From positions 1 to 40,744 of the forward strand of contig JASUTE010000016.1 of NCBI GenBank assembly GCA_030445745.1: a stretch of DNA of 40,744 nucleotides, in the 5' to 3' direction. Positions 496-32,755 of the stretch are shown piece by piece. Source of the DNA: Candidatus Cloacimonadota bacterium (GTDB lineage: Bacteria > Cloacimonadota > Cloacimonadia > Cloacimonadales > TCS61). Position numbers and translations under genes: made by a program. Numbering within the stretch: the first letter of the stretch is position 1; each line of letters opens with the position of its first letter. The notes under the pieces were generated by a model that worked only from the letters and a program-made list of their open reading frames with translations, made no database searches and had not been told where the DNA came from.

Positions 496-3400
496 TTAAA
501 CTGTAACCTTAAAACAGGCGCCAGCTTTCACGTTATAAGCTTCAATTTTTCCGCCCATATTGTTTTCCACAATCATTTTGCTCATATAAAGGCCAATACC
601 CGTGCCTTTTCCTTGTTCCTTGGTAGTAAAATAAGGATCGAATATTCTGGTGATGTTTTTTTGGGGAATACCTCCGCCGTCATCACAAATAACCAGCTGG
701 CTAGCACCGTTATTTTTGGTAAGTTCCAACTTCACGGTTCCACCATGCACATTATTTTCTTTAATAGCATCTTTAGCATTGTTCAAAATGTTCAATACAA
801 CCTGAGAATATTCATTTTCAAAACCATATATTGTAACATCTTCTAAGTTAGCTTCCAGTTTTATTTGGTTGTGTACGAAGCTTTTGGAAATGAAGCTAAT
901 CGTCTTTTCAATAATATCTTTAGCATTGAAATTTGCTTTTTCCTTGTTTGGTTGGAAGAAATTTCTGAAATCATCGATAGTGCGCGACATAAACTGCAAT
1001 TGTTCCATGGCTTTATTTACCGATTTATTTAAATAAGCAGCATCCAGTTCATTATATTCCCAGGCATCTTCAATATCTTGCACGATAGCCGAAACTGCTG
1101 TGAGTGGTTGACGCCATTGATGAGCTATATTACCTATCATTTCGCCCATCGCTGCTTGGCGTGATTGCATTATAAGCAGATGATCTTTTTCTCTTAGCTG
1201 TTGCACTGTGTTATCCACTTTTGTTTGCAGATCTTTGTTCAATTGTTTCAGTTGCTCATAGGTGCGGCGCAATTCATCTTGATTTTTCTTTCTGGTAATA
1301 GCAAGTGCTATTTGTTCAGAAACAAATTCCAAAACCTCTCTATCTTTCTGGGTGTATGCATTTTCATTTTCGTAGCTTTGTACAGAAACCACACCTATTA
1401 TTTTGTTTTCTATCTTCAAGGGAACTCCCATCCAAACTTTGGAAAGTGTACCGATAATTTCAATTATACCTTTATTACGCATTTCCTCTATTTCTTTTTG
1501 TTTTAGGAAAAGAGAAGTGTTGTGATTAATCACGTAAGCGGTAAGTGTTTTTCCAGCTGGAAATTCATCTATATTATCTTTAGTATCTTGATGATAAGGT
1601 AGCGAGATGGTATTTGTTTCTTCATTGTACATAGCTACATAAAAGTTTTTTGTATCGATAATTCTTCCTAAATATTCCCGAATCTTTAGTAAAAGCTGAG
1701 CTAGATCTTCTGTTTCGTTTACTGCATTCGAGATGTTATAAATTACAGTTCGCAACATCTGTTCACGTACTGACTTGGTAATATCACATGCCGAAAATAC
1801 AAGATTTTTGGTTTCTTTTCCCTTTCTAAGAGGGTATAGGGTGACTGCATAGTGTTTCTGCTTTATTTCAACTCTATAGTTTATTATCTGACCTGTTCGC
1901 ATTGCTTTTTTAAAAGCCTTTTGATATATTTTAAAATTATCTTTGGAAATTAACTCTTTAGAATTTTTCCCTATTAAATCATCTTTAGTTTTTATCTGAT
2001 TTTTTATTTGTTTAATATATTTAAGTAATTCCAAATTCAAATCTAAAATAGTGAAATCTTCATCTAACATCATAATGAAATCTTTATTAGCATCAATAAT
2101 GGCTCTGGCTTTACGTTCACTGGTTTCCAAGGCTTGCTGCATTCTGGTTCTTTCCCTTAGTTCCTGCTGGGTTCTTTGGTATAGTTCGGCATTTTCTAAG
2201 GCAGAAGCAATCTGTCCAGCTAGAGTTTGGAGTGTTTCCAAATCATTTTTTTGGAAAGCATTCTTTTTAGAACTTTGGCAATCTAGCACTCCCCACGTTC
2301 TATTGCTAGTTACAAGCGGTACAGTTAATTCCGATTTAGTAATGATATTGCTTTTATAAGGGTTAATGAAACGTTTATCTTTACTTGTATCTCCCACAAT
2401 TGCAGCGCGGCCATTACATGCTACCCAACCTGTTATACCTTCTGTAACGGGAATATTAAAGTGTTTTCGGAAGAAATCTTTCATTTTTCCAGAACCAGCC
2501 TTGATATTTAATGTTGTAGAATCTCCAGAGAGAAGTAAAATGGAAACATTTTCGTATTCGAAGAGTTTGGTGATGAGCGTTGTAGCTTTTTCCATAAGTT
2601 TTTGTGGTTCTAAAAATTCCGAAACTTCTTTACTCACCTCGTTTATCAATTGAAATTGTTTTGCGCGATATTTCAATTTTTTTTCATATTCAAGACGTTC
2701 GCTAATATCGCGAGTTAAACCCTGTATTTCAATTGGATTTCTTTGGCTATCCTCAATAACTCTGCCAGAGAATTCTACATTTACTTTATGTCCATCTTTA
2801 TGATATATTTCTATTTGATATGTGAAGGTTTCTGGCCTATTTTCAATAGCTGTCTTTATTAAATTTTGCACTACTGGCAACTCTTTTTTCCCAATGTGCT
2901 CGAAAATATTGGAACCGATCCACTCTTCCGGTGAGTATCCGGTTAAATTTTGAATGGAAGGATTAACATAAGTAAATTTTCCATCCATAGTCATTTTCCA
3001 AATAGGATCGATAGCATTGTTTGCCAATAGTCTATATAGTTGCTCACGATTACGTAATTCTACCTGTGCTTGTTGACGTAAGACCACATTCGCTAGTTGA
3101 TTAGAAATATTTTGTAGCATATTTATATCGGTTTCATCGAAAGCATGTTCATCTTCGAAACTTTGTATGGACATTACTCCTACCACTTTTTCTCGATACA
3201 AAAGAGGTATGCCCAGCCATAATTTGGTGGGATGACCAATAATTTTAACTTCGCCAGTGGCTTCTAATGCGTTAATTTTGTCTTTATTGGCTAGAAGTGG
3301 CTGCTTATTGGTTATCACATAGTTAGTTAGGGTTTTACCCAGTGGGAATTTTTTATATTCATCTTTCTGACTTTGTTTGTAGATAAAGTCTAATTCATGA

Positions 3401-4692
3401 TTTTTCTCATCATAAGTGGCTATCATAAAATTGTGTGCATCTATTATTTTATTCAAATTTGTTTGAATAGCACGCGACAGTGAAGATAGATCATTTGCTT
3501 TTAAAGCAGCCTGAGAAATAGCTGTTTGAACTTCTTGAATTTTTTGCTGCCGTTTTTCTTTGGTTATATCTATAATAATGGAATGCAGATAATCTTTATC
3601 CTGAATATTTATCTTACTGCTATACACAGCTACATCTACTACAATACCATCTGCTTTTTTATGTTTGAATTCAAATTTGACCTTATTTTTCTGTTTCGCT
3701 TTCTGCATTTCTTGCTTGATTTTTTCAGGAGGTAATGTATTTATCTGGTTAATGTTCATTTGCTTTAATTCGTTTGTACTCCAACCATAAAAACTTGCAG
3801 CAGCATCGTTAGCATCTACTATGCGACCAGTTTCGGGGTCTAAAAGCAGTTTTACAGCAGAGTGTTTTTGGAAAATATTCCTAAATTTTTCTTCGCTCTG
3901 TTGCAAAGCTTCGACGGTTTCAATTTGACTGGTAATATCTTCGATAAGACAAATTGTTCTAATAAAATTACCACTGGCATCAGTTAATCTAGAAGAGTTA
4001 ACCTTTACTTTAAATTCACTTCCATCTTTGCGCACCATTTTATAATATTCATTATAAAGCACACCTCGTTTAATTATATTTTTCAGATTTTTCTTGATTT
4101 TTCTATGGTCATCAGGATGATAGATTAGGGTCATGTTTTTACCTAGTAGCTCAGATTTCTGGTAACCCAAATACTCTTTTACACGCTGATTGCAATCTAC
4201 TATGTACCCGTTTTTATCGATAGAAATTATAAGATTGGCAGCAGTTTCAAATATTTTTTTATAGTTTTGTTCAGTAACAATGAGGCTTTTTTCGTAGCTA
4301 ATTCTTTCCTTGCATGTTTTCAAGGCAGTACGTACAGCCACCAGCAATGGTACTAAATTTTCCAAAGATTTTATTATATAGTCGTCTATGCCACTTTTCA
4401 TCACTTTCACAGCTATCTCTTCACTACCAGTAGCTGTGAACATTATAATCGAGCATTCCGGGTTTATGCAGTTGATATTATGTACCACTTCCAACCCATT
4501 CGACCATTTAAGTTGATAATCTACAATAGCAAGGTGAAAATATTTGTGTTCTAAAATAGATTGAAAATCTTTGTGAGTTCCAGCTTCTAAGACATTGATA
4601 TTTTTGAATTCATTTTTCAATTGTCTTTTCACCAAAGCCCTATCATTCTTGTTGTCATCCACAAGTAGTATATTCATATCATCAAATTTCAT
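496..4692 (-). CDS. Cytoplasmic multidomain sensor histidine kinase with N-terminal receiver domain (REC-PAS-GAF-HK)
   Basis: A 1398-residue two-component kinase with no signal peptide or membrane segment, so it should sense cytosolic cues. Domain order: receiver (about 7-120; acidic pair D12/D13, acceptor D58, K108), PAS (141-257), PAS (265-378), GAF (385-540), PAS (549-668), GAF (680-835), PAS (855-975), GAF (980-1135), coiled coil (1138-1172), dimerisation/phosphoacceptor helix with H1191 in AHQWRQPL, and an ATPase domain with N-box 1301-1308, DDGGGIP (1337-1343), FDPYF and GKGTGIGL (1361-1368). The first and third GAF domains are close duplicates (both have GKTLT.YVI and W.G.PL). The start overlaps the upstream regulator's stop by ATGA, so translation is coupled. 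The receiver is at the N terminus, where it probably gates the kinase as an input. The ligands cannot be read from sequence. Confidence 0.95.
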   Translation of the reverse strand: MKFDDMNILLVDDNKNDRALVKRQLKNEFKNINVLEAGTHKDFQSILEHKYFHLAIVDYQLKWSNGLEVVHNINCINPECSIIMFTATGSEEIAVKVMKSGIDDYIIKSLENLVPLLVAVRTALKTCKERISYEKSLIVTEQNYKKIFETAANLIISIDKNGYIVDCNQRVKEYLGYQKSELLGKNMTLIYHPDDHRKIKKNLKNIIKRGVLYNEYYKMVRKDGSEFKVKVNSSRLTDASGNFIRTICLIEDITSQIETVEALQQSEEKFRNIFQKHSAVKLLLDPETGRIVDANDAAASFYGWSTNELKQMNINQINTLPPEKIKQEMQKAKQKNKVKFEFKHKKADGIVVDVAVYSSKINIQDKDYLHSIIIDITKEKRQQKIQEVQTAISQAALKANDLSSLSRAIQTNLNKIIDAHNFMIATYDEKNHELDFIYKQSQKDEYKKFPLGKTLTNYVITNKQPLLANKDKINALEATGEVKIIGHPTKLWLGIPLLYREKVVGVMSIQSFEDEHAFDETDINMLQNISNQLANVVLRQQAQVELRNREQLYRLLANNAIDPIWKMTMDGKFTYVNPSIQNLTGYSPEEWIGSNIFEHIGKKELPVVQNLIKTAIENRPETFTYQIEIYHKDGHKVNVEFSGRVIEDSQRNPIEIQGLTRDISERLEYEKKLKYRAKQFQLINEVSKEVSEFLEPQKLMEKATTLITKLFEYENVSILLLSGDSTTLNIKAGSGKMKDFFRKHFNIPVTEGITGWVACNGRAAIVGDTSKDKRFINPYKSNIITKSELTVPLVTSNRTWGVLDCQSSKKNAFQKNDLETLQTLAGQIASALENAELYQRTQQELRERTRMQQALETSERKARAIIDANKDFIMMLDEDFTILDLNLELLKYIKQIKNQIKTKDDLIGKNSKELISKDNFKIYQKAFKKAMRTGQIINYRVEIKQKHYAVTLYPLRKGKETKNLVFSACDITKSVREQMLRTVIYNISNAVNETEDLAQLLLKIREYLGRIIDTKNFYVAMYNEETNTISLPYHQDTKDNIDEFPAGKTLTAYVINHNTSLFLKQKEIEEMRNKGIIEIIGTLSKVWMGVPLKIENKIIGVVSVQSYENENAYTQKDREVLEFVSEQIALAITRKKNQDELRRTYEQLKQLNKDLQTKVDNTVQQLREKDHLLIMQSRQAAMGEMIGNIAHQWRQPLTAVSAIVQDIEDAWEYNELDAAYLNKSVNKAMEQLQFMSRTIDDFRNFFQPNKEKANFNAKDIIEKTISFISKSFVHNQIKLEANLEDVTIYGFENEYSQVVLNILNNAKDAIKENNVHGGTVKLELTKNNGASQLVICDDGGGIPQKNITRIFDPYFTTKEQGKGTGIGLYMSKMIVENNMGGKIEAYNVKAGACFKVTV

Positions 4693-5141
4693 TTATCTGC
4701 CTCATAAAGGTAATGTGGATGCTGATTTATCCTAAGCCAGTATTTTTGGATAAGTTCAACGAAATCTTTGAGTTCATTATAGTTATGGGGTTTGGTTACA
4801 TATGAATTTGCTCCCATATTGTAAGCCTGTATAACATCTTTTGTTTCTTTAGAAGAGGAAAAGATTATTACCGGTGTTTGTTTGAGTTTTTCGTGCTGCC
4901 GTAGCCATTCCAGCACTTTTAAACCCGATTCTCCTGGTAGTTTAATATCCAGAAAGATAAGAATGGGAAGTTCATCTTCGTCTGCATTATCAATTTTTTC
5001 TAAATACTGTAGAGTAGCTTCAGCAGTTTTAAAAATTTTTAAAGGATTGTTTATTTGCGTTTTGCTGAACGCTCTTTTGAACAAAGTAATGTCGTTATCA
5101 TCATCTTCAACCCAGATGATGCTAGGATGAGTTGGAACCAT
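4689..5141 (-). CDS. Single-domain response regulator (Rcp1/CheY-like)
   Basis: A 150-residue stand-alone receiver with no output domain. The acidic cluster EDDD (12-15), the phospho-acceptor D65 in FLDIKLPG, the switch serines of FSSSK (95-99) and K117 in VTKP are all present, so it should be phosphorylated normally. The length and the ETKDVIQAYN-type helix are typical of Rcp1-like regulators that pair with phytochrome-type histidine kinases, which matches the SHDLRAPL kinase just upstream. The start codon follows AGGGAG. The gene lies 15 bases after that kinase and overlaps the next kinase by 4 bases. It probably carries phosphate between the two kinases, or to the receiver/ATP-grasp proteins encoded upstream. 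The partner is inferred from position only. Confidence 0.93.
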   Translation of the reverse strand: MVPTHPSIIWVEDDDNDITLFKRAFSKTQINNPLKIFKTAEATLQYLEKIDNADEDELPILIFLDIKLPGESGLKVLEWLRQHEKLKQTPVIIFSSSKETKDVIQAYNMGANSYVTKPHNYNELKDFVELIQKYWLRINQHPHYLYEADK

Positions 5142-5156
5142 ATTACTCCCTAAAAA

Positions 5157-8100
5157 CTAATAATTTAAAATATCAATCCACAAGGTACTGCCTGTTTTGC
5201 CGTCGGAAATAACCCCGCAATCACCTCCGAGTTTTCTGGCTGCTTTTTTTACTAAAGCCAAGCCAATACCATTTCCTGCATAATCCTCACTGCTATGCAG
5301 CCTCTCAAAAATATTAAAGATCTTATCCTGATACTCTTCCTTGATTCCAATCCCATTATCTTCTATCAATAACCGAATGTATTTTCCCCTAAATTTACTG
5401 TCAACCTTTATTTTTGGTTTTTTACCTGGTTTTGTAAACTTAACAGCATTCGTTAGTAGATTTATAAGAATTTGGCGCAGCAGAGTAGAGTTACTTTTCA
5501 CTGTTCCTAATGGTTTTTGTATATCTATATTAGCTTCTTTAGCTTCCAGTTCAGGCTGTAAATTTTGCAAAACAGTATCTACTATTTTATCTAAATCTAT
5601 CTTGCTCATAGAGATCTCTTTACGAGACAAGCGGCTATAGTCTAACAGATCGGAAATTAGCTCTTGCATATGTTTTACCGAATCAATAATGCGCTGGGCA
5701 TAATCTTGTCCGGTTTTATCAAACTTATCGGCATAATCTTCAACTAAAGCTTGGGTAAATCCCTCTATAGCACGCAAGGGAGCGCGTAAATCGTGGGAAA
5801 CAGAATAGGAAAATACTTCCAGCTCGTTCAGGGTTTCCTTTAAATTGGCGGTGCGCTGCTGTATTCGTTCTTCTAGTTCCCGGTTCAATTTATCCAGCTC
5901 CTGTTCATATTTTTTCCTATCGGTAATATCTAAAACCAAACCTTCTAAGGCGATTATTTTACCAGCTTTATCTCGAACAGCCTGACCTTGTTCCAAAACC
6001 CATTTTTCGGTATTCTGGGCAGTTCTAATTTTATAGATTAATTTAAACATCTTTTCTTGTTGAACTGCTTTATCTATAGTTTCTTTAACATATTTTCTAT
6101 CTTCCGGAATAATGAGCCTATTGTAGCTTATTTCGGTATTTTCTAAAATCTGTTCAGCAGTATAACCGGTTAATTTAAAAACACCTTGGCTTACAAAATG
6201 CATAGTCCAGTTTTCATCATAACTGCAGCGATAAGCCATACCAGGAAGATTATTCATCAAAGTAGTGAGCTGACGTTTGCTTTCTTCCAAAGCTTTTTCT
6301 TGGGCTATACGACCACTAAGATCACGGAATATTACCTGATCGGCATTTTTGCCATTAATTTCAATCAAACCAGCATTAATCTCGACCACTATTTTACGAT
6401 TATTTTTAGTGATAAGCAGTGAACGATAGATAGGAACACTTTCTTTACCAGCCATTCTGTTATTGTATCTTTTCTCTATTGTTTTTCGCTCTTGCGGATG
6501 AAATATATTAATAAAATCCATACCTACAAGTTGGGAAAAGTCGTATTCCAGCATCTTGCAAAGTGCTCTATTAGCATAGGTTATTTTATGATCTTGTAAA
6601 ATCGCTATTCCATCTTGAGCTCGTTCTACTAAATTTCTGTATTTAGCCTCGTTATTCACCAATTTTTGTTCCATTATCTTTTTTTCTGTGATATCTAAGC
6701 CAAATGTGATAACAAATGTACCCAAATCTGGGCTTTTTATAATATTATTACGCCAGTAGATAAGCTTTTCTTGCCCATCTTTTGTTAAAATATAATTTTC
6801 GCCAAATTCTTTTATATTACCTTGCTTCTTGAATTCCTGAAATGTATTCCAAGGCTGAGGATATCTATCTTTAGGTACAATTATTTCGAAGTAGTTTTTA
6901 TTTAAAATCTCATCTTTGCTATAACCTGTTATTTTTTCGGCAACCTGATTAAAAATTTTCACATTACCATCTATATCTAATCCCACTATCATCGCATTTG
7001 CAGATGCTATTACTTCTTCTGCGAATTTTTTATTGGCCCTCAGTTCTTTTTCATTTTCTAGGCGAGCAGAAATATCTTGAATAGTAGCGATAATACCGTC
7101 GTATTTATCATCTTGGAAAATTGGGGTAGCATTTATATTTACGTATATCCATTGATTTTGCTTTGTTTTCACCTTCATATAATAATTGCAAACAGTTGTT
7201 TTTTGTTCCTTAGCTAAATAAAAAGGAAGCTGCTGAGGATCTATGTTTTCATCGGTAAAGGTTCTCATTTCAAAGAATTCTGGTTTTAGAGGCTGAGCTG
7301 TAAGTTCTGCTTTAGTATAACCCAGGATAGTTAAAGTAGTAAAATTGCAGAATTCCAAATGGTTTTGGGAATCTACTATAACAATTCCCACCGGACTTAA
7401 CTCAGAAATTTTTTTAAATATCTGCCGCTCTTTTTGTAACTCGCTGGTAAGTTGTTTTATTTCCGAAAAATCTTGATGAGTACCAATGAAACGCAAAGGA
7501 TTACCTGCGGCATCATGCTTCACTACTTTCCCACGAGCTAATATCCATTTATATTTGCCATCTTTACCTTGGATGCGGTGTAGATTTTCGTAGTATGGTG
7601 TTTTACCTTGCAGGTGTTGTTTTATATCTTCTTCTACCTGTTTTATATCTTCTGGATGAACGCGCAATTTCCATTCATTGTAATGGTTTTCGATCTCATC
7701 TTCATTGTAGCCTAGCATTTTCTTCCATTTTGTAGAAAAGAAAATAATATCTTTATCTAAGCGCCAATCCCAAACTCCTTGTTGAGCTCCTTCTAAGGCA
7801 AATTTCCAGCGTAATTCACTCTCTTCTAATTCCATTGTACGCTTTTTTACCAGTTTTTCCAAGGTAAAATGCCAAATCAAAACTGCTGCTATTAAAATTA
7901 TAATAATTCCTACTAGGAAATACTTGTATTTTACCCAAACTTTTACAATCCAACTTTGGGGTTGTAAGCGCGAAAACCATTTATTGTAAATACGAGTATA
8001 TTCACCGTTTGTATGAAGCTGTTGCAAACCGCTATTTATTTTATGCAAAAGTTGGAAATCGCCTTCTTTCACTGCTAAGCAATATTTGGAAGGTCGGAAG

Positions 8101-8681
8101 GCTTCTCCGGTTGGTTTTAAATTATTCAGTTGCAACTGTTCTATTATATACATGCCTTGGCTTTCTATGGCTAAAGCACAATCGTATTTACCAGAAGATA
8201 AAAGTTTTAAAGAAGATTCAGGGGTATCGGTGGTAATGATATTTTTAATTCCTTTTTTTATTAAATAATCGTGTAAAATATCATCTTTTTGTACTATTAC
8301 TGTTTTGTCTTCTAATTCATTAATACTGTTTATGGAGGGACTGTCTTTCCTAATGAATATAGTATGAAAAAAATAACTATGTGGAATAGAAAAATCGACA
8401 ACTTTATCTCTTTCTTGGGAATAGGTCATGCCTATTAGCACATCTATTTCACCGTTTTCCAATTCGGAACGTACCTTAGACCACTGTTCCAGTTGCAGCT
8501 TATAATCCAAATGCATCTCTTGGGCAATAGCTTCAAATAGTTCCACATTGAACCCATCTGGTTCACCATCAGCGTTGATGAATTCATAGGGTGGGTAGCT
8601 GTAGTCACCTTTAACTTGTAACGGCTGCGAGATAAGTACCAGACTAAATAAAAATAACGCTATAATTATTATTTTTTTCAT
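5157..8681 (-). CDS. Membrane sensor histidine kinase with periplasmic solute-binding domain and five PAS domains
   Basis: A 1174-residue BvgS/EvgS-style sensor. I chose the ATG at 8681; a TTG four codons upstream is less likely because the signal sequence begins naturally at MKKIIII. Order: signal peptide (1-25), one family-3 solute-binding domain (about 23-242; SYPPYEF and DGFNVELFEAIA are typical of amino-acid binding proteins), transmembrane helix (254-272), PAS repeats (about 289-409, 418-540, 550-668, 678-795, 804-924), coiled coil, HisKA with H963 in SHDLRAPLRAIEGF, and an ATPase domain with EDNGIGI (1107-1113) and GNGIGLAL. The family's periplasmic domain binds small solutes; an amino acid is plausible but not shown. 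It lacks the receiver and HPt modules of BvgS, so it needs a separate regulator, most simply the one 15 bases downstream. Confidence 0.95.
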   Translation of the reverse strand: MKKIIIIALFLFSLVLISQPLQVKGDYSYPPYEFINADGEPDGFNVELFEAIAQEMHLDYKLQLEQWSKVRSELENGEIDVLIGMTYSQERDKVVDFSIPHSYFFHTIFIRKDSPSINSINELEDKTVIVQKDDILHDYLIKKGIKNIITTDTPESSLKLLSSGKYDCALAIESQGMYIIEQLQLNNLKPTGEAFRPSKYCLAVKEGDFQLLHKINSGLQQLHTNGEYTRIYNKWFSRLQPQSWIVKVWVKYKYFLVGIIIILIAAVLIWHFTLEKLVKKRTMELEESELRWKFALEGAQQGVWDWRLDKDIIFFSTKWKKMLGYNEDEIENHYNEWKLRVHPEDIKQVEEDIKQHLQGKTPYYENLHRIQGKDGKYKWILARGKVVKHDAAGNPLRFIGTHQDFSEIKQLTSELQKERQIFKKISELSPVGIVIVDSQNHLEFCNFTTLTILGYTKAELTAQPLKPEFFEMRTFTDENIDPQQLPFYLAKEQKTTVCNYYMKVKTKQNQWIYVNINATPIFQDDKYDGIIATIQDISARLENEKELRANKKFAEEVIASANAMIVGLDIDGNVKIFNQVAEKITGYSKDEILNKNYFEIIVPKDRYPQPWNTFQEFKKQGNIKEFGENYILTKDGQEKLIYWRNNIIKSPDLGTFVITFGLDITEKKIMEQKLVNNEAKYRNLVERAQDGIAILQDHKITYANRALCKMLEYDFSQLVGMDFINIFHPQERKTIEKRYNNRMAGKESVPIYRSLLITKNNRKIVVEINAGLIEINGKNADQVIFRDLSGRIAQEKALEESKRQLTTLMNNLPGMAYRCSYDENWTMHFVSQGVFKLTGYTAEQILENTEISYNRLIIPEDRKYVKETIDKAVQQEKMFKLIYKIRTAQNTEKWVLEQGQAVRDKAGKIIALEGLVLDITDRKKYEQELDKLNRELEERIQQRTANLKETLNELEVFSYSVSHDLRAPLRAIEGFTQALVEDYADKFDKTGQDYAQRIIDSVKHMQELISDLLDYSRLSRKEISMSKIDLDKIVDTVLQNLQPELEAKEANIDIQKPLGTVKSNSTLLRQILINLLTNAVKFTKPGKKPKIKVDSKFRGKYIRLLIEDNGIGIKEEYQDKIFNIFERLHSSEDYAGNGIGLALVKKAARKLGGDCGVISDGKTGSTLWIDILNY

Positions 8682-8706
8682 AATTTTTCTCAAGTTTAGC
8701 TAATTC

Positions 8707-8791: not shown

Positions 8792-11737
8792 TTATTTTAA
8801 AATTACTGCCTTACCCGTTTTCCCATCAATTTTTACTACCACATTTTTCTTTGGTCTAACATGCCAAATATGTTCCTCTTTGTTTATAACCGGCTGTTTT
8901 TGCAACCATTCCCAGTCTAAATAATCTTCTTTATTGCGCACCGTAAGGTAACCCACACCCATTGCTACCAAATTATGGAAAAAATGACTACCCTGGGAGG
9001 CATCTACAGAAAAGTTTTCCAAGCTGGCTTCTACTATTACTTTGGCCATGTTGATGTTTGCCCAATGCACAGGAATGCCCAAAAATCTGTCGCTGCTACC
9101 CCAGCGGCCAGGGCCTATCAAAATATATTTTCGCTCTTCTGCTTTTAATTTTTTATTAATTTTTTCCAGCTCCTGACTCATAGCTAAAGTTTCTTTATTA
9201 TCAAATTTATCTGGTAGTACAAACACAATATCGCTAATGTCATCCATAGTTCCATTTCCCATACCGCGCTTAGTTATTAAAACAGCTTTTTCTTCAGAAA
9301 TGTTGTCTAAATCCAATTTAACAGCTTCTTTATTTATGGAAAGTGGACGGATTTGTAGAATATAGAACTTTGGTTCATTATTGGCAAAATCGGCAGCAAA
9401 CTCTATTTCAATAGGAACTCCCATAGCTATTTCACCTATTTCCAGAAAACGATTTATAATCTGCGAAAGTGGATATTTATTGAAATGTATGAGTTGGCGG
9501 AAGGTAAGCACTCGCGGTCCTTCTGCATAATCGCCATCTATAAAACTGGAATTTTGGTAATCCCACACTGAAGTAAATAGTTTAAATTCTTCCTCTTTTT
9601 GTTTTTTGCTAAGGCGCTGATGCTGCAAAAAACTTTCCTCATCTTTATTGAAGTCAAATTCAGTTAGATTTAAATCTAAAGCATAGAATTTACGCTGGTT
9701 GTTTTCTACAATATCTTCTGGTTTCAGTAGATCGATTTTAGGATGTTTAGGGCAATAACGAAATGCTCTTTCTCCCTCCACAATCCCTTTTCCTAACCCG
9801 ACCGCTATAGCAGCTATGCCGTCTTTATGAGTCATGCGGGAGGAGGGATAGAAATTGTATGATTGTGCCACTCCAGAAAGATGTGGATAAAATAGACCAT
9901 CTTTGCTCTTATGTCCTGCTATTTCCTGAATAACCACTGCCATTTTTTCTTCATCAAGTTTGTAGTTAATACTTTCGATATACTGGCGAGCATCTTTTTT
10001 AAAAGGAGAGGCCAGTACAAGCTTAATAGCTGTGCATAACTGCTCCAAATTTCTTTCTGGGTTTCTATTATTGGGAAGCATATAAGTATTGTATATACCG
10101 GCAAAAGGTTGTGATTGAGAATCTTCCAACAAGCCAGAAGAGCGAATTGCTAAAGGATAATCGATTTTTTCCAGCATAATTTTCAGTTTATTTTTAAGTT
10201 CATCACTTAACTTCGCTTCCGAAAATATTTGGTTTATCTCTTTATCGGAATGTTTTATCAATTCCTTGCTTTGTAGCTTATTTTGTTCCAAGAAAATATC
10301 GAATTCATGAGTTCCTATAATAGCGGTACGTGGTAGTTTTATCGAAATATTATCGAATTCGTCATCAATATCCATTGCCGTTAGCAATGAATTCAAGAAA
10401 GCAAGTCCACGTCCTTTGCCTCCCATAGAGCCTTCAGTAAGTTGTATTATTTTATCTTCTTCAGTTAAAATTGCTGGTGTGAAATGTATAACTTTACCTT
10501 GGTATTGCTTTTGACGCACCTTTTTGATGGTTTGCAGCAGAAATTCTCGCAAATGTTGTACTGAAAGAAAATCTGCGGTTACGATATGGCGAATACTATC
10601 TGCTATCTTCAGTTCACCATGAGCTGCTAACCAGGCAGAAAAATGATTTCTAGCTGCATGATATAATAGAGATTCGTCAGGAACTTCTTTCAGCATCTGC
10701 TCAAATTGATAGATATTTTTGGCTCGCCCAATCTCCTCTTCCTGCAGATTGCGAAATACAAAATCACCAAAGCCTAAGTTGTTTTTAATAAAGCGACGAA
10801 TTCTGTGTAGAAGTTGTGCAGAATTTTTATCTAAAAATTCTGCGTTCAATTTTTTGGCGTGAATTTTATTATATTTGTCTGCAGATTGTATCATAATGGG
10901 TAGATCGGGATTATTTTGCCTAATTTCTCGCAGCAATTTAACCCCACCCAGCTCGTCGTAGGTATTATTAACTTGTAAATTTACATTGGAAATAACACAA
11001 ATGATATATTCTTTATACTTTCTGTAAAGTTCAACAGCATCTTCGTAGTTATGAGCCATTAAAACTTTAGGTCTAGCTCGCATGCGCAGTCGTTTGTTGG
11101 TATCGCTTAACTCACTTTGAGTAAGCTCTTGGGTCAAACTCATAGCTTCGCTGTAAAAAACTGGTAAGAATAGGGAATAGTAGTTAATGGCACTTTCTAT
11201 TAGCAGGGTAACGCGAACATTGCCAAATTTTGTATCATGCTCCACATTCAGTTTGTCTTCTATAAGTTTTATCATAGCCATAAACAGCATAGAATCGCCA
11301 TTCCAAAGAAAAACTTCATCAAAGTTTTTCAGCTTATTTTGATTGCGATATACCAGCTCTACATAAGACTGTTTATTCAAAAGCAGAATCACGGGCATTT
11401 GGGGAAACTGATTTTTAATGTTTTCACATAATTCAAAAGGGCTAATCTCACCAATTCTCATCATAATTATCACTAAATCGTAGTGCCCTTCTTCCAATTT
11501 GGAATTTATGTTTTCCGTAAAGGGTACTGTGGTAATTTTGGGAGCAGTACTAAGGTGCAGTTGCTTGTAATCGCCATAAATTTGTTCGGAAAGACGCCCA
11601 TCTTGTTCCAATACATAAGCATCGAAAAAATTGGAAATAAGCAGTATATTCTCGATGCGATGCTGCATCAGATTATGAAAATTCTCTTCTCCATATTTAA
11701 ATTTAGTGTAGTAGTAATTAAGCTCTTGAATATTCAT
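8792..11737 (-). CDS. Degenerate-receiver / PEP-synthase-type ATP-grasp protein, paralogue with Asn251
   Basis: A 981-residue protein that aligns along almost its whole length with the 989-residue neighbour upstream. Residues 28-165 resemble a receiver fold without an acceptor Asp (DLVIIMMRIGE). About 174-318 resemble a second receiver split by an insertion; its acidic pair is reduced to E181-S182, its acceptor position is Asn251 (VISNV) and Lys304 is kept. Residues 430-800 form the N-terminal ATP-grasp domain of PEP synthase/PPDK: GSMGGKGRG (437-445), RSSGLLEDSQSQPFAG (532-547), AVGLGKGIVEGE, EIEFA and LQIRPL. The C-terminal 180 residues hold YILIGPGRWGS and SQGSHFFHN (914-922). The swivelling phosphohistidine domain and PEP-binding barrel of true PEP synthases are absent, so it should not be called ppsA. 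It starts 10 bases after its paralogue ends. The catalytic product is unknown. Confidence 0.85.
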   Translation of the reverse strand: MNIQELNYYYTKFKYGEENFHNLMQHRIENILLISNFFDAYVLEQDGRLSEQIYGDYKQLHLSTAPKITTVPFTENINSKLEEGHYDLVIIMMRIGEISPFELCENIKNQFPQMPVILLLNKQSYVELVYRNQNKLKNFDEVFLWNGDSMLFMAMIKLIEDKLNVEHDTKFGNVRVTLLIESAINYYSLFLPVFYSEAMSLTQELTQSELSDTNKRLRMRARPKVLMAHNYEDAVELYRKYKEYIICVISNVNLQVNNTYDELGGVKLLREIRQNNPDLPIMIQSADKYNKIHAKKLNAEFLDKNSAQLLHRIRRFIKNNLGFGDFVFRNLQEEEIGRAKNIYQFEQMLKEVPDESLLYHAARNHFSAWLAAHGELKIADSIRHIVTADFLSVQHLREFLLQTIKKVRQKQYQGKVIHFTPAILTEEDKIIQLTEGSMGGKGRGLAFLNSLLTAMDIDDEFDNISIKLPRTAIIGTHEFDIFLEQNKLQSKELIKHSDKEINQIFSEAKLSDELKNKLKIMLEKIDYPLAIRSSGLLEDSQSQPFAGIYNTYMLPNNRNPERNLEQLCTAIKLVLASPFKKDARQYIESINYKLDEEKMAVVIQEIAGHKSKDGLFYPHLSGVAQSYNFYPSSRMTHKDGIAAIAVGLGKGIVEGERAFRYCPKHPKIDLLKPEDIVENNQRKFYALDLNLTEFDFNKDEESFLQHQRLSKKQKEEEFKLFTSVWDYQNSSFIDGDYAEGPRVLTFRQLIHFNKYPLSQIINRFLEIGEIAMGVPIEIEFAADFANNEPKFYILQIRPLSINKEAVKLDLDNISEEKAVLITKRGMGNGTMDDISDIVFVLPDKFDNKETLAMSQELEKINKKLKAEERKYILIGPGRWGSSDRFLGIPVHWANINMAKVIVEASLENFSVDASQGSHFFHNLVAMGVGYLTVRNKEDYLDWEWLQKQPVINKEEHIWHVRPKKNVVVKIDGKTGKAVILK

Positions 11738-11747
11738 CAGTTATGTC

Positions 11748-14717
11748 CTATTTATAAATAAAAGAAATTCCTCTCCGACCGTCCATTTTCACGGTGAAGG
11801 GTTTTTCTGGACGAGAAATATGCACGAAATATTTAGTTTTTTCTATTGGATTTTGTTGTTTCAACCATTCCCAATCAATAAAATCGGTATCGGTTGCATA
11901 AGGAACAGTGAAATAGCCCACATTCATCGAAACCAGATTGTGGAAAAAGTGAGTTCCTTGCGAAGAATCGACAATGAAATCTTTTAGACCAGCTTCTACA
12001 ATTATTTTAGCTTGGTTGATCTCGTGCCATTTTACCGGTATTCCCAGGAATCTATCGCGAGAGCCCCAGCGGCCAGGGGCAATTAAGATATAACGTTTCT
12101 GTTCATGTTTCATCTTTTCATTTAATTTTGCTACTTCGCTGCGCATCTGCATGGTTTGGGTGCGGTCGAATTTATCTGGATCAGCAAAAATAACATCGCA
12201 AACATTGTGGATAACACCGTTTCCCATACCGCTTTCTGTGTACAAGAATAACTCTTTTTTATCTAAATTTTCGGAATCGATATAGATTTCTTCAGTATTG
12301 ATAGTAAGCGGACGAATTTGCAATACATAGAACGCAGGGAATTTGTTTTGCTTAAGGTTCTTTTTCAAATTTACAGCAAATTCAATTTCTACAGGCACGC
12401 CCATCGCTTTTTCGCCAATTTCCAATATCTCTTCGGTTATCTTGGCTAGGGGGAAGGAATTGTATTTCAAAATATTATTGAAAGTTACAATTTTAGGACC
12501 TCGAGCTTCCGGATTATCTACTAATCGGTTGTTTTCTACATCCCACACAGAAGTTATCTGATGCAAACTACCATGTTTTTCTGCTACTCGTAATTTTAAC
12601 TTTTTCAAGGTTGGATCTTCAAAATTGTGCAATTCATAGTCGTCAATGGTCAGATCGAGTGCATAAAAATCGCGCTGGCCTTCGCCCAAAAGTTCTTTTT
12701 CCGAAATTATCTGCATTTTGGGATATTTGGGACAAAAGCGGAAATTACGTTCACCTTCAACAACTGCTTTTCCTAAACCCACCGCAACTGCAACCACGCC
12801 ATCACTATTTTCCATGTAGGAGGTGGGGTAGAAGTCGTATGATTGACCAACACCAGAAAAATTTGGGTAGAAATAACCATCATAGTTTTCACCCACCAAT
12901 TCTTGGATAATAACTGCCATCTTTTCTTCTTCTACCTTGTAGTTGATGCTTTCAATATAATTGCGAGCATTTTCCATAAATACTGAGGCAAATACGAGCT
13001 TTATAGCATTTTTCAAATAAATTAAGCGTTTGTGATAATCTTTGTGATTATTGGGCAGCATAAAAGTTTCGTAGATACCGGCAAAAGGTTGCGATTGGGA
13101 ATCTTCCAGCAAGCCTGAAGAACGCACAGCTAAAGGATAGTTAATGTTTTTTATCAGTATTTCCAATTTTTTACATAGTTCTTTGGAAAGTCTGCCTTTT
13201 AAAAAATAGTTTTGGATCTCACTATCGCTTTTTTCTGTTATCCAGCCGCCAATTTTGTTGTGTTCTATAAAAGTATCAAATTCGCTGGTACCAATTATGG
13301 CGGTGGTAGGAAGCAAAATTCTCACTTCTGAGAATCGTTTTTCAAATTCCATGGTTACCAAAAGGGTATTCAGAAAAGCCAAGCCGCGCCCTTTCCCACC
13401 CAAAGAGCCATCTGCCAGTCTTATAATCTGATCTTTTTCGGGAATGGTGGAAGGCTCGAAATTTACTATCTTACCACGCACTCGATTGCGGCGTACTTGC
13501 CGATAGATGTCTAAAAGATATTCTCGGAGTGCTTGAACGTTTTCGAATTCTTCTATCTGTATGGGCCGCACCTGTTTTGCCAGTTGGATTTCTCCGTGGG
13601 CTATAAGCCAACCAGAAAAATGCTTGCGCTTGCTGTGATATAGCAAGGATTCCTCGGGCACGGTTTCCAGTTTTTTGCCAAATTCAAACATTGTATGGGC
13701 ACGGTCTATCTCTTTACCTTTAGCATTACGAAACACAAAATCGCCATATCCCAAATCGTTGATAATTATGTTTCTTAGATCATGTAATAACGTTTTAGAA
13801 CTTTTGTTCAAAAAATTAGCACCAAGGCTATGAGCATATGCTCTGTTTTCCTCATCGGAAGATTGCAAGGTTATGGGAATATCTGCTTTTTCCGATTTAT
13901 GGATATAATCGATAAGTTTAATACCAGCATTGGGATCTAATTTACCATTTTTTTTATATTTCACATCGGAAATAACTCCCACTATATAATCCTGGTATTT
14001 TTTGAAACAGTGTACAGCTTCTTCATAGTTGTGCACCAGCAATACTTTTGGTCTGGCTCGCATGCGCAAGCGCTTGTTTATATCGTTTAACTCTTCACTT
14101 ATTAATCTTTGGGTTTGCTTCAAAATTTCCGAATACAACAGCGGCAGAAACATCGAATAGTAAACTATATTATCTTCTACCAACAAAATAACGCGTACAA
14201 AACCATATTTAGTATCATACTCTACATTGCGCTTATCTTCTTCGCGTTTTATCATAGCCAAAAACAGCTTTGTATCGCCATTCCAAATAAAAACATCATC
14301 GATATACTTCATTTCATCTTCGTTGTTCTGTACCAGCACCAAATCCGATTGCACATTCAATAGCAGCAAAATAGGAAGGTTGGGATGATTCTGCTTGATC
14401 TCTTTAGCTAATTTAAAAGGACTTACCTCACCAATTCGCATCATGGTTATTACCAGGTCGAATTTTTGAGTTTTCAATAGCTCTAAAGCTTGGATACCGG
14501 TAGGAACGCTGGTAATGCGGGGGGCTGTGCTTAGATTCAGCTGTCTGTATTCACCAAAAATTTGCTCGGAAAGCCGGCCATCTTGTTCAAAAATGAAAGC
14601 ATCGTAGAATGTGGAAACCAGCAAAATCTCACGAATACCATTTTTCATCAGGTTATGAAAATTGTCTTCTCCAAATTTGAATTTGTTGTAATAAAAGTTC
14701 AATTCTTTTAAATCCAT
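11748..14717 (-). CDS. Receiver / PEP-synthase-type ATP-grasp protein, paralogue with Asp251
   Basis: A 989-residue protein, first gene of the minus-strand signalling block, with RBS AGGAG and a good candidate promoter upstream. Residues 28-165 form a receiver-like domain lacking an acceptor Asp (DLVITMMRIGE). A second receiver begins at ILLVEDN (177-183) with acidic pair E181-D182, is interrupted by about 40 residues, and resumes with acceptor Asp251 (VISDV), serines 286-287 and Lys305, so it may be phosphorylated. Residues 430-804 match the ATP-grasp half of PEP synthase/PPDK: GSLGGKGRG (437-445), RSSGLLEDS (532-540), AVGLGKAVVEGE, EIEFAV and LQIRPL. The C-terminal part has YILIAPGRWGSRDRFLG (876-892) and SQGTHFFHN (919-927), both conserved in the paralogue. 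No phosphohistidine swivel or PEP barrel is present. Related long proteins are often labelled 'PEP/pyruvate-binding domain protein'; their substrate is, as far as I know, undetermined. Confidence 0.85.
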   Translation of the reverse strand: MDLKELNFYYNKFKFGEDNFHNLMKNGIREILLVSTFYDAFIFEQDGRLSEQIFGEYRQLNLSTAPRITSVPTGIQALELLKTQKFDLVITMMRIGEVSPFKLAKEIKQNHPNLPILLLLNVQSDLVLVQNNEDEMKYIDDVFIWNGDTKLFLAMIKREEDKRNVEYDTKYGFVRVILLVEDNIVYYSMFLPLLYSEILKQTQRLISEELNDINKRLRMRARPKVLLVHNYEEAVHCFKKYQDYIVGVISDVKYKKNGKLDPNAGIKLIDYIHKSEKADIPITLQSSDEENRAYAHSLGANFLNKSSKTLLHDLRNIIINDLGYGDFVFRNAKGKEIDRAHTMFEFGKKLETVPEESLLYHSKRKHFSGWLIAHGEIQLAKQVRPIQIEEFENVQALREYLLDIYRQVRRNRVRGKIVNFEPSTIPEKDQIIRLADGSLGGKGRGLAFLNTLLVTMEFEKRFSEVRILLPTTAIIGTSEFDTFIEHNKIGGWITEKSDSEIQNYFLKGRLSKELCKKLEILIKNINYPLAVRSSGLLEDSQSQPFAGIYETFMLPNNHKDYHKRLIYLKNAIKLVFASVFMENARNYIESINYKVEEEKMAVIIQELVGENYDGYFYPNFSGVGQSYDFYPTSYMENSDGVVAVAVGLGKAVVEGERNFRFCPKYPKMQIISEKELLGEGQRDFYALDLTIDDYELHNFEDPTLKKLKLRVAEKHGSLHQITSVWDVENNRLVDNPEARGPKIVTFNNILKYNSFPLAKITEEILEIGEKAMGVPVEIEFAVNLKKNLKQNKFPAFYVLQIRPLTINTEEIYIDSENLDKKELFLYTESGMGNGVIHNVCDVIFADPDKFDRTQTMQMRSEVAKLNEKMKHEQKRYILIAPGRWGSRDRFLGIPVKWHEINQAKIIVEAGLKDFIVDSSQGTHFFHNLVSMNVGYFTVPYATDTDFIDWEWLKQQNPIEKTKYFVHISRPEKPFTVKMDGRRGISFIYK

Positions 14718-17372: not shown

Positions 17373-19238
17373 ATGTCTAACTTAAAACGAGATTTAAAAC
17401 TATTTGACGTTTTTAGTGTTGCTGCCGGCGCTATGATAAGTTCGGGACTTTTCATATTACCAGGTTTAGCATATTCCAAAGCTGGACCCGCAGTTATCCT
17501 GGCTTATTTTTTGGCAGGTATACTTATAGTTCCCGCTATGCTAAGCCAAGCCGAGCTTTCTACCGCTATGCCCAAAGCTGGTGGTGCATATTTTTTTATA
17601 AATGTAAGCTTAGGCGCTGGTTTTGGAACCATGGCTGGGACTTCTGCTTGGCTCTCTTTAGCATTAAAAAGTGCTTTTGCTTTAGTAGGAATCGGTGCTT
17701 TTGCCAGTATTGTTTTGCCGGGGTTCACCGTCTTGGAAATAAAGCTGGTTGCTGTGCTCTTCTGCATTATTTTTACTGTTATAAATCTATTTGGAACTAA
17801 GCATGCGGGGAAATTACAAACGTTTATGGTCTTTGGCTTAATCGCAATTTTAGTAATTTACCTGGTAAAAGGAATTCCGCAGGTTCAGAATAAATATTTC
17901 GAGAATTTTATGCAGACTGATATGCGCACATTATTTATGACTGCTGGTATGATATTTATTTCCTTTGGTGGCCTAACTAAGGTGGCGAGCATGGCCGAAG
18001 AAGTGGATAATCCGGTAAAAAACATTCCACTGGGTATGATATTTTCCTTTTTAATAGTAACTGCATTGTATGTTTTGGTAGTATTTACCACAGTGGGAGT
18101 TTTAGGGGATGGTCTGCTGGAATCGGAAGTATCGGGATATTCATTAACACCAATAACCGACGGTGCGAGTAAAATAATGGGAAATTTTGGTGCTATTATA
18201 CTTTCGATAGCAGCATTACTGGCTTTTTTCTCTACTGCCAATGCTGGTATAATGGCTGCCTCGCGCAATCCTTTGGCTATGAGCAAGGATAATTTAATTC
18301 CACCAATTTTTAGCCGTATAAGTGAAAAACACAATACTCCATACATATCAATCCTTATAACTTCAGCTTTTATGATAGCTTTTATCTTTTTGCCCTTGGA
18401 AACATTGGTAAAAACAGCTTCAACAATGCAAATACTGATGTTTATATTTGTTAACCTTTCGGTGATAATAATGCGGGAAAGCGGTATTCAAAACTACAGA
18501 CCTAAGTTTAAATCACCCCTATATCCATGGATACAAATTTTAGCGATAATTTTATATATTTTCTTAATAATCGATATGGGTTTCTATCCGCTTTTAATTA
18601 CTTTGCTGTTCATGACAATTAGCTTGATTTGGTATTTGGTCTATGGAAGAATAAAAAACAATAAAGAATCGGCGCTGGTACAGCTGGTAAAACGCATCAA
18701 AGCTTCCGATTTGGACACTACAGCCCTGGATAGGCAATTACGAGAAATTGTTCGTGAGCGAGATTCGATAGAAAAAGATAGATTCGACAATATTATTGAA
18801 ACTGCTAAAATATTGGACTTAGGAAAAAGTATGGATCGTGAGGAATTTTTCCAACTAGTAGCAGAAGAGATTTGTGATTCTGTTAATACTCCTTGCGAAA
18901 ATATAAAAGAAAAATTGGAGCAAAGAGAACAAGAAAGTTCGACGGCAATAACAGATAACTTAGCCATTCCACATATTATTTTAGAAGGTGAAAAGAAATT
19001 TGATATTCTAGTAGTTCGCTGCAAAGAGGGCATTTATTTTTCCGAGAAAGCGCCTGCAGTTAAAATTGTGTTTGTTATTGCTGGCTCGCGCGATGAGCGC
19101 AATTTTCATCTGCAAGTTTTGGCAGCTATTGCCCAAATGGTTTCCAACCAAAATTTCGAGAAAAAGTGGATGAAAGCAAAAAATAAAGAGGCGCTTAGGG
19201 ATATAATATTATTGGGAGATAGAAGACGTAATTTATAA
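17373..19238 (+). CDS. APC-family amino acid permease fused to a C-terminal PTS EIIA-like domain
   Basis: A 621-residue inner-membrane transporter. Residues 8-425 hold about twelve membrane helices with the APC-type helix 1 motif GAMISSGLFILPG (19-31), so an amino acid or amine is the likely substrate. After a charged linker, residues 487-615 match the PTS EIIA type 2 (mannitol/Ntr) fold, with the phosphorylatable His534 in NLAIPHIILEG intact. The family link suggests that transport is gated by phosphorylation state or by the domain acting as a sensor. No HPr or enzyme I gene is in the window. The start follows AGGAGG at good spacing. miaB begins 3 bases after the stop. A second EIIA-fused transporter lies in the same operon. 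Confidence 0.9.
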   Translation: MSNLKRDLKLFDVFSVAAGAMISSGLFILPGLAYSKAGPAVILAYFLAGILIVPAMLSQAELSTAMPKAGGAYFFINVSLGAGFGTMAGTSAWLSLALKSAFALVGIGAFASIVLPGFTVLEIKLVAVLFCIIFTVINLFGTKHAGKLQTFMVFGLIAILVIYLVKGIPQVQNKYFENFMQTDMRTLFMTAGMIFISFGGLTKVASMAEEVDNPVKNIPLGMIFSFLIVTALYVLVVFTTVGVLGDGLLESEVSGYSLTPITDGASKIMGNFGAIILSIAALLAFFSTANAGIMAASRNPLAMSKDNLIPPIFSRISEKHNTPYISILITSAFMIAFIFLPLETLVKTASTMQILMFIFVNLSVIIMRESGIQNYRPKFKSPLYPWIQILAIILYIFLIIDMGFYPLLITLLFMTISLIWYLVYGRIKNNKESALVQLVKRIKASDLDTTALDRQLREIVRERDSIEKDRFDNIIETAKILDLGKSMDREEFFQLVAEEICDSVNTPCENIKEKLEQREQESSTAITDNLAIPHIILEGEKKFDILVVRCKEGIYFSEKAPAVKIVFVIAGSRDERNFHLQVLAAIAQMVSNQNFEKKWMKAKNKEALRDIILLGDRRRNL

Positions 19239-20541: not shown

Positions 20542-22269
20542 ATGTTTGCGCATATCAGTAAATGGTTTCAAGGTGATGTTGCGCTTATTCAAGCTGCCAA
20601 TCCTTTGCTAGTACTTTCTGTTATCTTAATTACTGGTTATATTTTCAATAGATTAGCTAGAAAACTGCATATTCCCACGGTAACCTGTCAAATTCTGGGC
20701 GGTGTGGTTTTGGGACCTTATGTGCTGAATTTATTTGTACAAAATGCCTACACCAGCTTTGTACCTATCACCAATTTCGCATTAGGTTTTATAGGACTTA
20801 CAATCGGCAGTCACCTCGATTTTCGTAAATTGCACAATGCTGGACGTCGTATAGCTTTCATTACGCTTGCCGATGCTATTATAACGCCTGTTGTGGTGTT
20901 CTTTTCATTGCAATTGTTCACAAATGTATCTCTGGAAGCTTCACTTTTAATCTCGGCAATTGCCATTACTACGGCGCCAAGTTCAACTCTGCATATTGTC
21001 CGCGAAAAGCGAGCTAAGGGAATTTTTACTAAAACTCTATTGGCTGTAGTTGCTTTGAATAATGTGATCACTATCGTAGTTTTCTACACCGTATATTATT
21101 TTATTTATTATATAACTTCTACTTCGCATGTTGGAATTGTAGCAATAATTATAAAACCTTTACTACTATTAGTGGAATCTATTATTATTGGTAGTGTGGT
21201 GGGATATGCGGTAATCTATTTCACCGAGAAACGCAAAACCCGCGTTTCCTTCCTGGTTATGGTTATGATGGCAGTTATCATAACTGTAGGAACTGCCGAA
21301 ACCTTGCATCTTTCTGGAATTCTGAGTAGCCTTATTTTGGGAATGGTGATAAGTAATTTTTCCAAAAATAAAAATACTCTGTTTGGAGCTTTTAAAGATA
21401 TAGAAACAGAAGTTTATACTCTCTTTTTTGTATTGGCCGGTACTCACTTGGATTTTGCCGCAATCAAAATAGCAGGATCTATTGGCTTTGTACTTATTTT
21501 AAGTCGCTTATTTGGAAAAACCGTTGGTTCTACTTTGGGAGCATGGTTAGCAGGTTCAACTGATACTATTAAAAAATGGATAGGTATTGCACTTTATCCT
21601 ATTGCTGGCGTAGCAATTGGACTGGTACTATTAATAGAAAATAATGAACTATTGAGTATCTATTCTTCCGAAATAACCTCAGTTGTACTTACTGCTGTTG
21701 TCGTGAACGAACTGCTAGGACCAATTTTGACTGGTAAAGCCTTGCAAAAAAGTGGGGAAGTAGATAAAAACAGATTACGATTGATGGATTTTATTCAAGA
21801 GGAATTTATTAAAGTTGATATGCAATCCGATAATAAATGGGACGCTCTTGCTGAACTAACTGAATTTATGTATAAAACCCACAAATGTCATGAAATTTCC
21901 TTAGAAAAGCTGAAAAACAGCTTTATAGAGCGGGAAAAACAGGTTTCTACAGGGATTGGCAATAATTTAGCTATTCCGCATGCAATTATAGAAGGCGGTC
22001 CCAAAATACGAGGTGTAATAGGTATTTCCAAAAAAGGAATAAAATTTGATGCTGTAGACGATAAACCAGTACATATCATCTTTTTAATTGCAACACCCAA
22101 AGAACATTATGATCGCCAACATTTGCAAGTACTTTCCAATATTGCCAAAATATTTGGTCAGCACCCGCATATTAAAAAACAAATGCTAAAAGCAAATACA
22201 CCAGAAGAAGTTTTTGAAATATTACAAACCGAAGAAGTCGAAGAACTAAATCCATTCTTTGAAGATTAA
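20542..22269 (+). CDS. CPA2-type cation/proton antiporter homologue fused to a C-terminal PTS EIIA-like domain
   Basis: A 575-residue inner-membrane protein. Residues 20-400 hold 11-13 helices of the Na+/H+ exchanger (Kef/NapA) fold: GGVVLGP near helix 2, and TTAPSSTLHIVRE (143-155) where the family has its unwound-helix TTSP-type segment. At the usual ion-binding pair of the next helix I see Asn173-Asn174 (ALNNVITIV) rather than Asp-Asp or Asn-Asp, so ordinary proton coupling is uncertain. Residues 412-565 form an EIIA type 2 domain with His480 in NLAIPHAIIEGG intact, related to the domain on the permease two genes upstream. It starts 1 base after the miaB stop and is the last gene of the operon. 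Substrate unknown. Confidence 0.87.
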   Translation: MFAHISKWFQGDVALIQAANPLLVLSVILITGYIFNRLARKLHIPTVTCQILGGVVLGPYVLNLFVQNAYTSFVPITNFALGFIGLTIGSHLDFRKLHNAGRRIAFITLADAIITPVVVFFSLQLFTNVSLEASLLISAIAITTAPSSTLHIVREKRAKGIFTKTLLAVVALNNVITIVVFYTVYYFIYYITSTSHVGIVAIIIKPLLLLVESIIIGSVVGYAVIYFTEKRKTRVSFLVMVMMAVIITVGTAETLHLSGILSSLILGMVISNFSKNKNTLFGAFKDIETEVYTLFFVLAGTHLDFAAIKIAGSIGFVLILSRLFGKTVGSTLGAWLAGSTDTIKKWIGIALYPIAGVAIGLVLLIENNELLSIYSSEITSVVLTAVVVNELLGPILTGKALQKSGEVDKNRLRLMDFIQEEFIKVDMQSDNKWDALAELTEFMYKTHKCHEISLEKLKNSFIEREKQVSTGIGNNLAIPHAIIEGGPKIRGVIGISKKGIKFDAVDDKPVHIIFLIATPKEHYDRQHLQVLSNIAKIFGQHPHIKKQMLKANTPEEVFEILQTEEVEELNPFFED

Positions 22270-31140: not shown

Positions 31141-31364
31141 TTTCACTCCTTTTCAAGTAAAATCCTCATTTAGGAGTTGTTGGTCAAGAAATTATTTTCC
31201 CAGATTATTCACGAAAATTTTTTAGAGCTATTATAGCAGAATTTTTTTTAATAACAAAAAAAATAGAAAGAATCAACAAAACTGTCATCCCCTTTTATAA
31301 AGCAGCATTAGAGAGATTTCCAAACATTTTAATTTTCTTGGTAGTAAGAAAATAATTATTGTTA

Positions 31365-31405: not shown

Positions 31406-32755
<1,350 letters not shown>

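Follow-up and report, generated by a model that had tools for sequence, protein, structure and literature searches.

A tandem pair of receiver/ATP-grasp proteins and its family: possible ATP-dependent regulators encoded near glutamate dehydrogenase

The tandem genes, their ATP-grasp domain and their C-terminal domain

The window, by which we mean the whole stretch of 40,744 nucleotides of a Candidatus Cloacimonadota contig that was analysed, carries on its minus strand two adjacent genes separated by a gap of 10 bp, each preceded by a plausible AGGAG/AGGA-like ribosome site (Table 1). Their products are complete paralogues with 53% identity, and both consist of two receiver domains (REC1 and REC2), a linker, a PPDK_N ATP-grasp domain and a C-terminal domain (CTD). 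An earlier note, made from the DNA letters alone, had described two adjacent paralogues of 989 and 981 residues, each with two receiver-like domains, and this description stands: the ORF coordinates are exact, both genes lie on the same strand, Pfam Response_reg matches the N-termini of the two copies (E values of 1e-7 and 2e-10), and in Foldseek the N-terminus of the AlphaFold model of copy 1 (AF2, pLDDT 79.9) matches the tandem receivers PleD, 3luf and 3mf4. The full architecture is kept at 38-70% identity across several phyla and can therefore not be due to chance. The linker between REC2 and PPDK_N, residues 326-425 in both copies, gives a weak match to DUF5752 (PF19027), which narrowly passes the cut-off in copy 2 and falls short of it in copy 1.

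Table 1. Features of the tandem pair and of other genes in the window
Feature	Position	Strand	Remarks
Copy 1, 989 aa, REC1-REC2-linker-PPDK_N-CTD	11748..14717	-	ORF, ATG start
Copy 1 REC1, residues 28-170	14208..14636	-	receiver fold without phospho-acceptor Asp
Copy 1 REC2, residues 174-325	13743..14198	-	receiver with complete site: E181/D182, D251, S286, K305
Codon of D251, copy 1	13965..13967	-	predicted phospho-acceptor of REC2
Copy 1 linker, residues 326-425	13443..13742	-	weak DUF5752-like match (PF19027), below cut-off
Copy 1 PPDK_N ATP-grasp domain, residues 438-810	12288..13406	-	K442, R532, E779, Q800, R802 kept
Copy 1 CTD, residues 811-989	11751..12287	-	GRWG...SxGTHFF, no known family
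Codon of H923, copy 1	11949..11951	-	invariant; candidate phosphate acceptor or catalytic His
Copy 2, 981 aa, REC1-REC2-linker-PPDK_N-CTD	8792..11737	-	ORF, ATG start
Codon of N251, copy 2	10985..10987	-	acceptor Asp of REC2 lost
Copy 2 PPDK_N domain, residues 437-814	9296..10429	-	ATP-site residues intact
Copy 2 CTD	8795..9295	-	invariant His is residue 918, codon 8984-8986
Histidine kinase, periplasmic amino-acid-binding-type domain (SBP_bac_3) and PAS domains	5157..8693	-	
Single-domain response regulator	4689..5141	-	
REC-PAS-GAF protein ending in HATPase_c	496..4692	-	hybrid sensor kinase
Amino-acid permease	17373..19238	+	C-terminal PTS_EIIA_2 (PtsN-like) fusion
Na+/H+ exchanger	20542..22269	+	C-terminal PTS_EIIA_2 (PtsN-like) fusion
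NAD synthase	30379..31146	-	
NADP-type glutamate dehydrogenase GdhA	31409..32755	+	orthologue of family-linked GdhA

The PPDK_N domain (PF01326) is recognised with E values of 2e-38 in copy 1 and 2.5e-39 in copy 2, and the motifs GGKGRG (starting at residue 440 in copy 1 and 439 in copy 2), RSSGLLEDS (532 in both) and LQIRPL (799 and 794) are intact in both copies, as had been noted. We took the correspondence with PPDK residues from motif alignment and from what we regard as established knowledge of PPDK. On this assignment K442, R532, E779 and Q800 (PPDK K22, R92, E323 and Q335) are near-invariant in about 100 divergent proteins, and at the position of PPDK R337 there is an Arg, replaced by Lys in 7 of 59 receiver-type proteins. 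The family thus has the ATP-grasp domain in common with PPDK and PEP synthase but differs from them in having neither the PEP/pyruvate barrel nor a detectable swivel, with receivers in front and the CTD behind. The middle region of the copy 1 model matches rifampin phosphotransferase and PPDK in Foldseek; RPH is the closest solved fold to the ATP domain (5hv3, E 9e-12), and PigC is among its best NCBIfam models. RPH keeps the swivel His domain, and neither RPH nor PigC has the receivers or the GRWG/SxGxHFF domain found here. Copy 2 was considered as a dead enzyme and this was ruled out, every ATP-site and CTD residue checked being kept.

The loss of the PEP barrel and of a recognisable swivel, already reported in the earlier note together with a conserved C-terminal domain of about 180 residues, is borne out by Pfam, which matches neither, and by the proteins ending right after the CTD. 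This domain is real and strongly conserved. The motif GRWG...G...E...S-x-G-[STA]-H-F-F, including H923, is invariant in 101 proteins, and G882-R883-W884, G892, E908, S919, G921, H923, F924 and F925 show little or no variation across about 100 proteins, unrelated N-termini included. Modelled alone with AlphaFold, the CTD folds confidently (pLDDT 87.8, pTM 0.87). Its comparison with Pfam, NCBIfam and PDB sequences returned chance matches only, and a Foldseek search with the model found no solved relative at E<=0.001, the best match having an E value of 0.037. The domain therefore appears to be undescribed. PPDK_N is joined to the same CTD in every member examined, and in the Bacillota sample, where all matching frames have at least 572 codons, the CTD was never seen alone.

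The position of the invariant His resembles that in a swivel, which makes a role as phospho-carrier or catalytic residue plausible by analogy. It also raises the question of whether the CTD is a swivel in disguise. An ordinary swivel was rejected: SxG[ST]H resembles the motif GGxTSHA, but profile comparison and Foldseek gave nothing. The CTD could instead be an extremely diverged swivel, and the proteins degenerate relatives of PEP synthase/PPDK that still supply phosphohistidine to a partner carrying the PEP/pyruvate barrel. By our own reading, the predicted order of strands, helix, strand YILIxPGRWG, strand VIVE, SxGT-His loop, helix and strand parallels that of a swivel, whose His likewise starts a helix after a glycine loop. 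Set against this are the profile comparison of the CTD with the swivels of the same genomes (hhalign probability 0.2%), the Foldseek result, the lack of a Pfam match to PF00391 and the fact that no barrel protein is found among the conserved neighbours, and we consider this explanation improbable.

Receiver sites and the two-component genes of the window

We analysed the receiver sites in an alignment of 76 receiver-bearing relatives. The acceptor Asp of REC1 is missing in every relative in which REC1 is covered, with T-M-x usually found instead. The REC2 of copy-1 and single-copy proteins is very different from this, since it retains D251 and K305 in 61 of 61 proteins and D182 in 60 of 61, and D251 is kept across Cloacimonadota, Bacteroidota, Desulfobacterota, Sumerlaeota, Heimdallarchaeota and other groups. 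In the second copies of the Cloacimonadota tandem, both D251 and D182 are lost in 15 of 15 loci. The set of an acidic pair, an acceptor Asp, a Ser/Thr and a Lys is thus complete in REC2 of copy 1 and incomplete in REC1 of both copies and in REC2 of copy 2. Receiver control, as proposed in the earlier note, could apply to REC2 of copy 1 and not to the others; given that REC1 and copy 2 lack the Asp, it rests on one of the four receiver domains. This arrangement resembles that of PleD-type tandem-receiver regulators, which likewise place two receivers one after the other, the acceptor Asp being present in one and the other being degenerate. The difference lies in the output, a GGDEF or DNA-binding domain in the PleD type and the ATP-grasp/CTD core in this family.

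The 14 distinct second copies of Cloacimonadota form one clade in the tree (SH-aLRT 90). Together with the general loss of their Asp, this makes a single duplication, after which copy 2 would have lost phosphorylation and yet been retained, the simplest reading of the sequences. The tandem pairs of Sumerlaeota have a separate origin and keep the Asp in both copies.

Three two-component genes follow the pair on the same strand, as had been noted. The signalling context drawn from them is upheld in part: REC2 is intact, and histidine kinase and NtrC-type pairs recur near some loci of the family, but the two-component genes are not conserved neighbours. The histidine kinases of the window were accordingly rejected as a conserved partner, no recurrent equivalent being found beside the relatives. 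SBP_bac_3 domains often bind amino acids, and the kinase that carries one (5157..8693) could feed REC2 as a possible partner whose pairing is not conserved. Elsewhere in the window, an amino-acid permease and a Na+/H+ exchanger each carry a C-terminal PTS_EIIA_2 fusion, so that transport may be controlled in the PTS-Ntr manner in the vicinity of the pair.

Family architectures and the association with glutamate dehydrogenase

The family has a constant ATP-grasp/CTD core and a varying N-terminus, with two receivers, with none (forms of about 575 aa) or with unidentified modules, one of which we take by eye to be KaiC-like, Pfam giving no match. This constancy of the core under changing N-terminal parts is the pattern expected of a regulator. 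One subfamily of about 1060 aa carries a C-terminal nucleotidyltransferase, with the GS...DxD motif intact in 5 of 5 proteins. An apparent fusion, an ORF of 1542 residues in locus L084, was dismissed because the extra sequence is upstream read-through.

The conserved neighbour of the family is glutamate dehydrogenase (GDH). Homologues in a plainly metabolic context free of signalling would have refuted the earlier proposal, and the outcome is mixed, as this neighbour is metabolic and yet REC2 is intact. Among the Desulfobacterota, a GDH gene is found within 700 bp of 12 of 15 receiver-type members (12 of 12 on the same strand) and within 5 kb of 36 of the 55 members whose N-termini are of other kinds, these and the following linkage counts being lower bounds taken from contig-level coordinates of draft genomes. 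In Cloacimonadota, GDH is found within 5 kb in 28 of the 45 genomes with receiver-type members and in 14 of the 15 with the short form. By chance, about 1% of genes would have a GDH gene at a distance of up to 5 kb. As a control, 28 true swivel enzymes (PF00391), PPDK and PTS enzyme I among them, were taken from ten of the same genomes, and none of these is so placed. In one locus (L091), GDH is adjacent by coordinates but hidden under a longer overlapping ORF. The link is also seen in Heimdallarchaeota and Syntrophomonadaceae, as well as in Bacteroidota of the human gut: WP_041525632.1 of Parabacteroides distasonis, a full-length member (39.9% identical over 99%), adjoins gdhA, another gdhA lies some 3.5 kb further on, and Phocaeicola massiliensis has the same arrangement beside gdhA.

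The Bacillota were examined after the GDH hypothesis had been formed. There, GDH is the neighbour of one receiver-type member out of three and of five additional long forms, but not of seven forms of about 585 aa. Other neighbours occur in this phylum. Three members of 870 aa are followed by two genes of matching size, identified in one case as the small and large subunits of glutamate synthase; of the short forms, one is next to alanine dehydrogenase and one is found a gene away from histidine ammonia-lyase. The theme of the neighbourhoods is the ammonia node.

Receiver-type members are mostly found beside the NADP-type GdhA, and short and other forms often beside a second GDH class. In a tree of 71 GdhA proteins, no fewer than 7 changes between adjacent and non-adjacent must be assumed, so that the association with different GDH lineages has been gained or lost repeatedly. 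A link to two GDH classes and several GdhA lineages is as expected if it is selected. A residue contrast between linked and unlinked GDH found no separating residues. Taken as a whole, a functional link between the family and GDH or ammonia metabolism is very likely.

The genome of the window is among the 17 of 45 Cloacimonadota receiver-type genomes without GDH adjacency. The GdhA of the window lies 17 kb from the pair on the opposite strand and groups with the linked type with moderate support; hence, the family arrangement has probably been broken up here.

Several other gene arrangements were seen around these loci. In the window, NAD synthase is divergent to GdhA. In several Cloacimonadota (L054, L056, L062, L063, L064, L065), a second tandem GdhA follows the first and is itself followed, in a conserved block, by an LpxA-like hexapeptide acyltransferase-like gene and a glycosyltransferase. 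Three other Cloacimonadota members (L075, L077, L078) are not beside GDH; by eye, they are downstream of a chorismate-synthase-like gene and another shikimate-pathway-like gene, with an uncharacterised gene of about 525 aa in between. Four short Bacillota forms (L190, L192, L195, L198) are preceded by a gene that we read by eye as encoding a DedA-like membrane protein of 175-189 residues, and in L195 and L198 a sarcosine-oxidase-like amino-acid oxidoreductase lies directly upstream.

Possible function and mechanism

What could such proteins do beside GDH? The best explanation of the whole, mechanism included, is in our view that the family consists of widespread ATP-dependent regulators of ammonia-handling enzymes, above all GDH, to which we give a probability of roughly 0.4. 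Its members would be regulators gated by a phospho-signal and dependent on ATP, and would probably modify ammonia-node enzymes covalently, with GDH as the foremost target; the association with GDH is strong, and the chemistry is what we infer. The parts of this proposal are not equally firm. Control by a signal is rather probable, while covalent modification of GDH is a tentative proposal. More doubtful still is the widest version, in which the proteins form a new class of signal-controlled ATP-grasp protein-modifying enzymes, with a new catalytic CTD, that covalently switch GDH and related ammonia-node enzymes in bacteria, gut Bacteroidota included, and in some archaea.

The mechanism could run as follows. 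A histidine kinase would phosphorylate Asp251 in REC2 of copy 1, changing the activity of the ATP-grasp/CTD core. In PEP synthase, the PPDK_N half transfers phosphate from ATP to the swivel His, and by the chemistry of such enzymes a histidine would be phosphorylated from ATP here as well; His923 of the CTD is the most likely candidate and would take the part of the swivel His. This role of His923 is an analogy only, because the CTD has no detectable relation to swivels. The CTD could then pass the phosphoryl group to a target or otherwise modify it, the target being most likely GDH or a closely connected metabolite, and modification of GDH would switch ammonia assimilation or release. Copy 2, in which the ATP site and the CTD are intact and the receiver is not phosphorylatable, would probably form a heteromer with copy 1 or provide a signal-independent basal activity. 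A loose parallel, by analogy only, is nitrogen control of the GlnE/GlnD type, which resembles the proposed ATP-dependent control of an ammonia-assimilating enzyme and the nucleotidyltransferase of one subfamily. The architecture of the present family is unrelated to it, however, and the linked enzyme is GDH and not glutamine synthetase.

Since the family has more than one kind of enzyme as a neighbour, what it acts on could be a metabolite common to these enzymes and not the GDH protein itself. This leads to an alternative that we consider unlikely, though not negligible: a metabolic ATP-dependent phosphotransferase or ligase, RPH- or PigC-like, whose substrate would be a small ammonia-node molecule such as glutamate, 2-oxoglutarate or an amino acid and which the receivers would switch on and off. 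It fits the fact that the ATP domain has its closest relatives, among solved folds and sequences alike, in enzymes acting on small molecules or PEP, and that the several neighbouring enzymes share metabolites and not a fold. It accounts less well for the predominance of GDH, which holds for two GDH classes, or for signal-type N-terminal modules varying over a constant core, typical of a regulator, and a substrate-specific domain is not recognisable.

A second alternative, to which we give slightly less weight, is that of a non-catalytic regulator sensing ATP/ADP or a metabolite, whose core binds the nucleotide and which controls GDH allosterically in a complex, as GarA of mycobacteria reportedly does by binding. 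Frequent gene coupling to GDH in the absence of a recognisable phospho-carrier domain could be explained in this way, as could the Lys that replaces the PPDK Arg337 equivalent in some receiver-type proteins. Yet the other four ATP-site residues hardly vary over about 100 divergent proteins, and the invariant polar residues and His of the CTD resemble a catalytic site.

A regulatory role of the family, which we prefer, would have broader implications. GDH connects carbon with nitrogen metabolism, and in most of these organisms its control is, to our knowledge, hardly understood beyond allostery and transcription. The neighbourhoods in several phyla point to a dedicated GDH partner with an ATP site, an invariant-His domain and, in one subfamily, two receivers, and the co-location suggests an unrecognised way of controlling ammonia uptake or release in many bacteria and some archaea. 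In the open-access literature, we found no description of the family, the CTD or the GDH link. The label of such proteins in public records, "PEP/pyruvate-binding domain-containing protein" (e.g., WP_041525632.1), fits PPDK_N only and assigns no function; many proteins under it would now gain a direction for the search of their function, and the family is within reach in gut anaerobes that can be cultured, Parabacteroides distasonis among them.

Finally, the short form is found in three loci (L048, L049, L050) in an operon with the order GDH, 575 aa and about 1060 aa, which is closed by a further gene of metallophosphoesterase-like type. The product of this closing gene is possibly an eraser of a phosphate or nucleotide mark.
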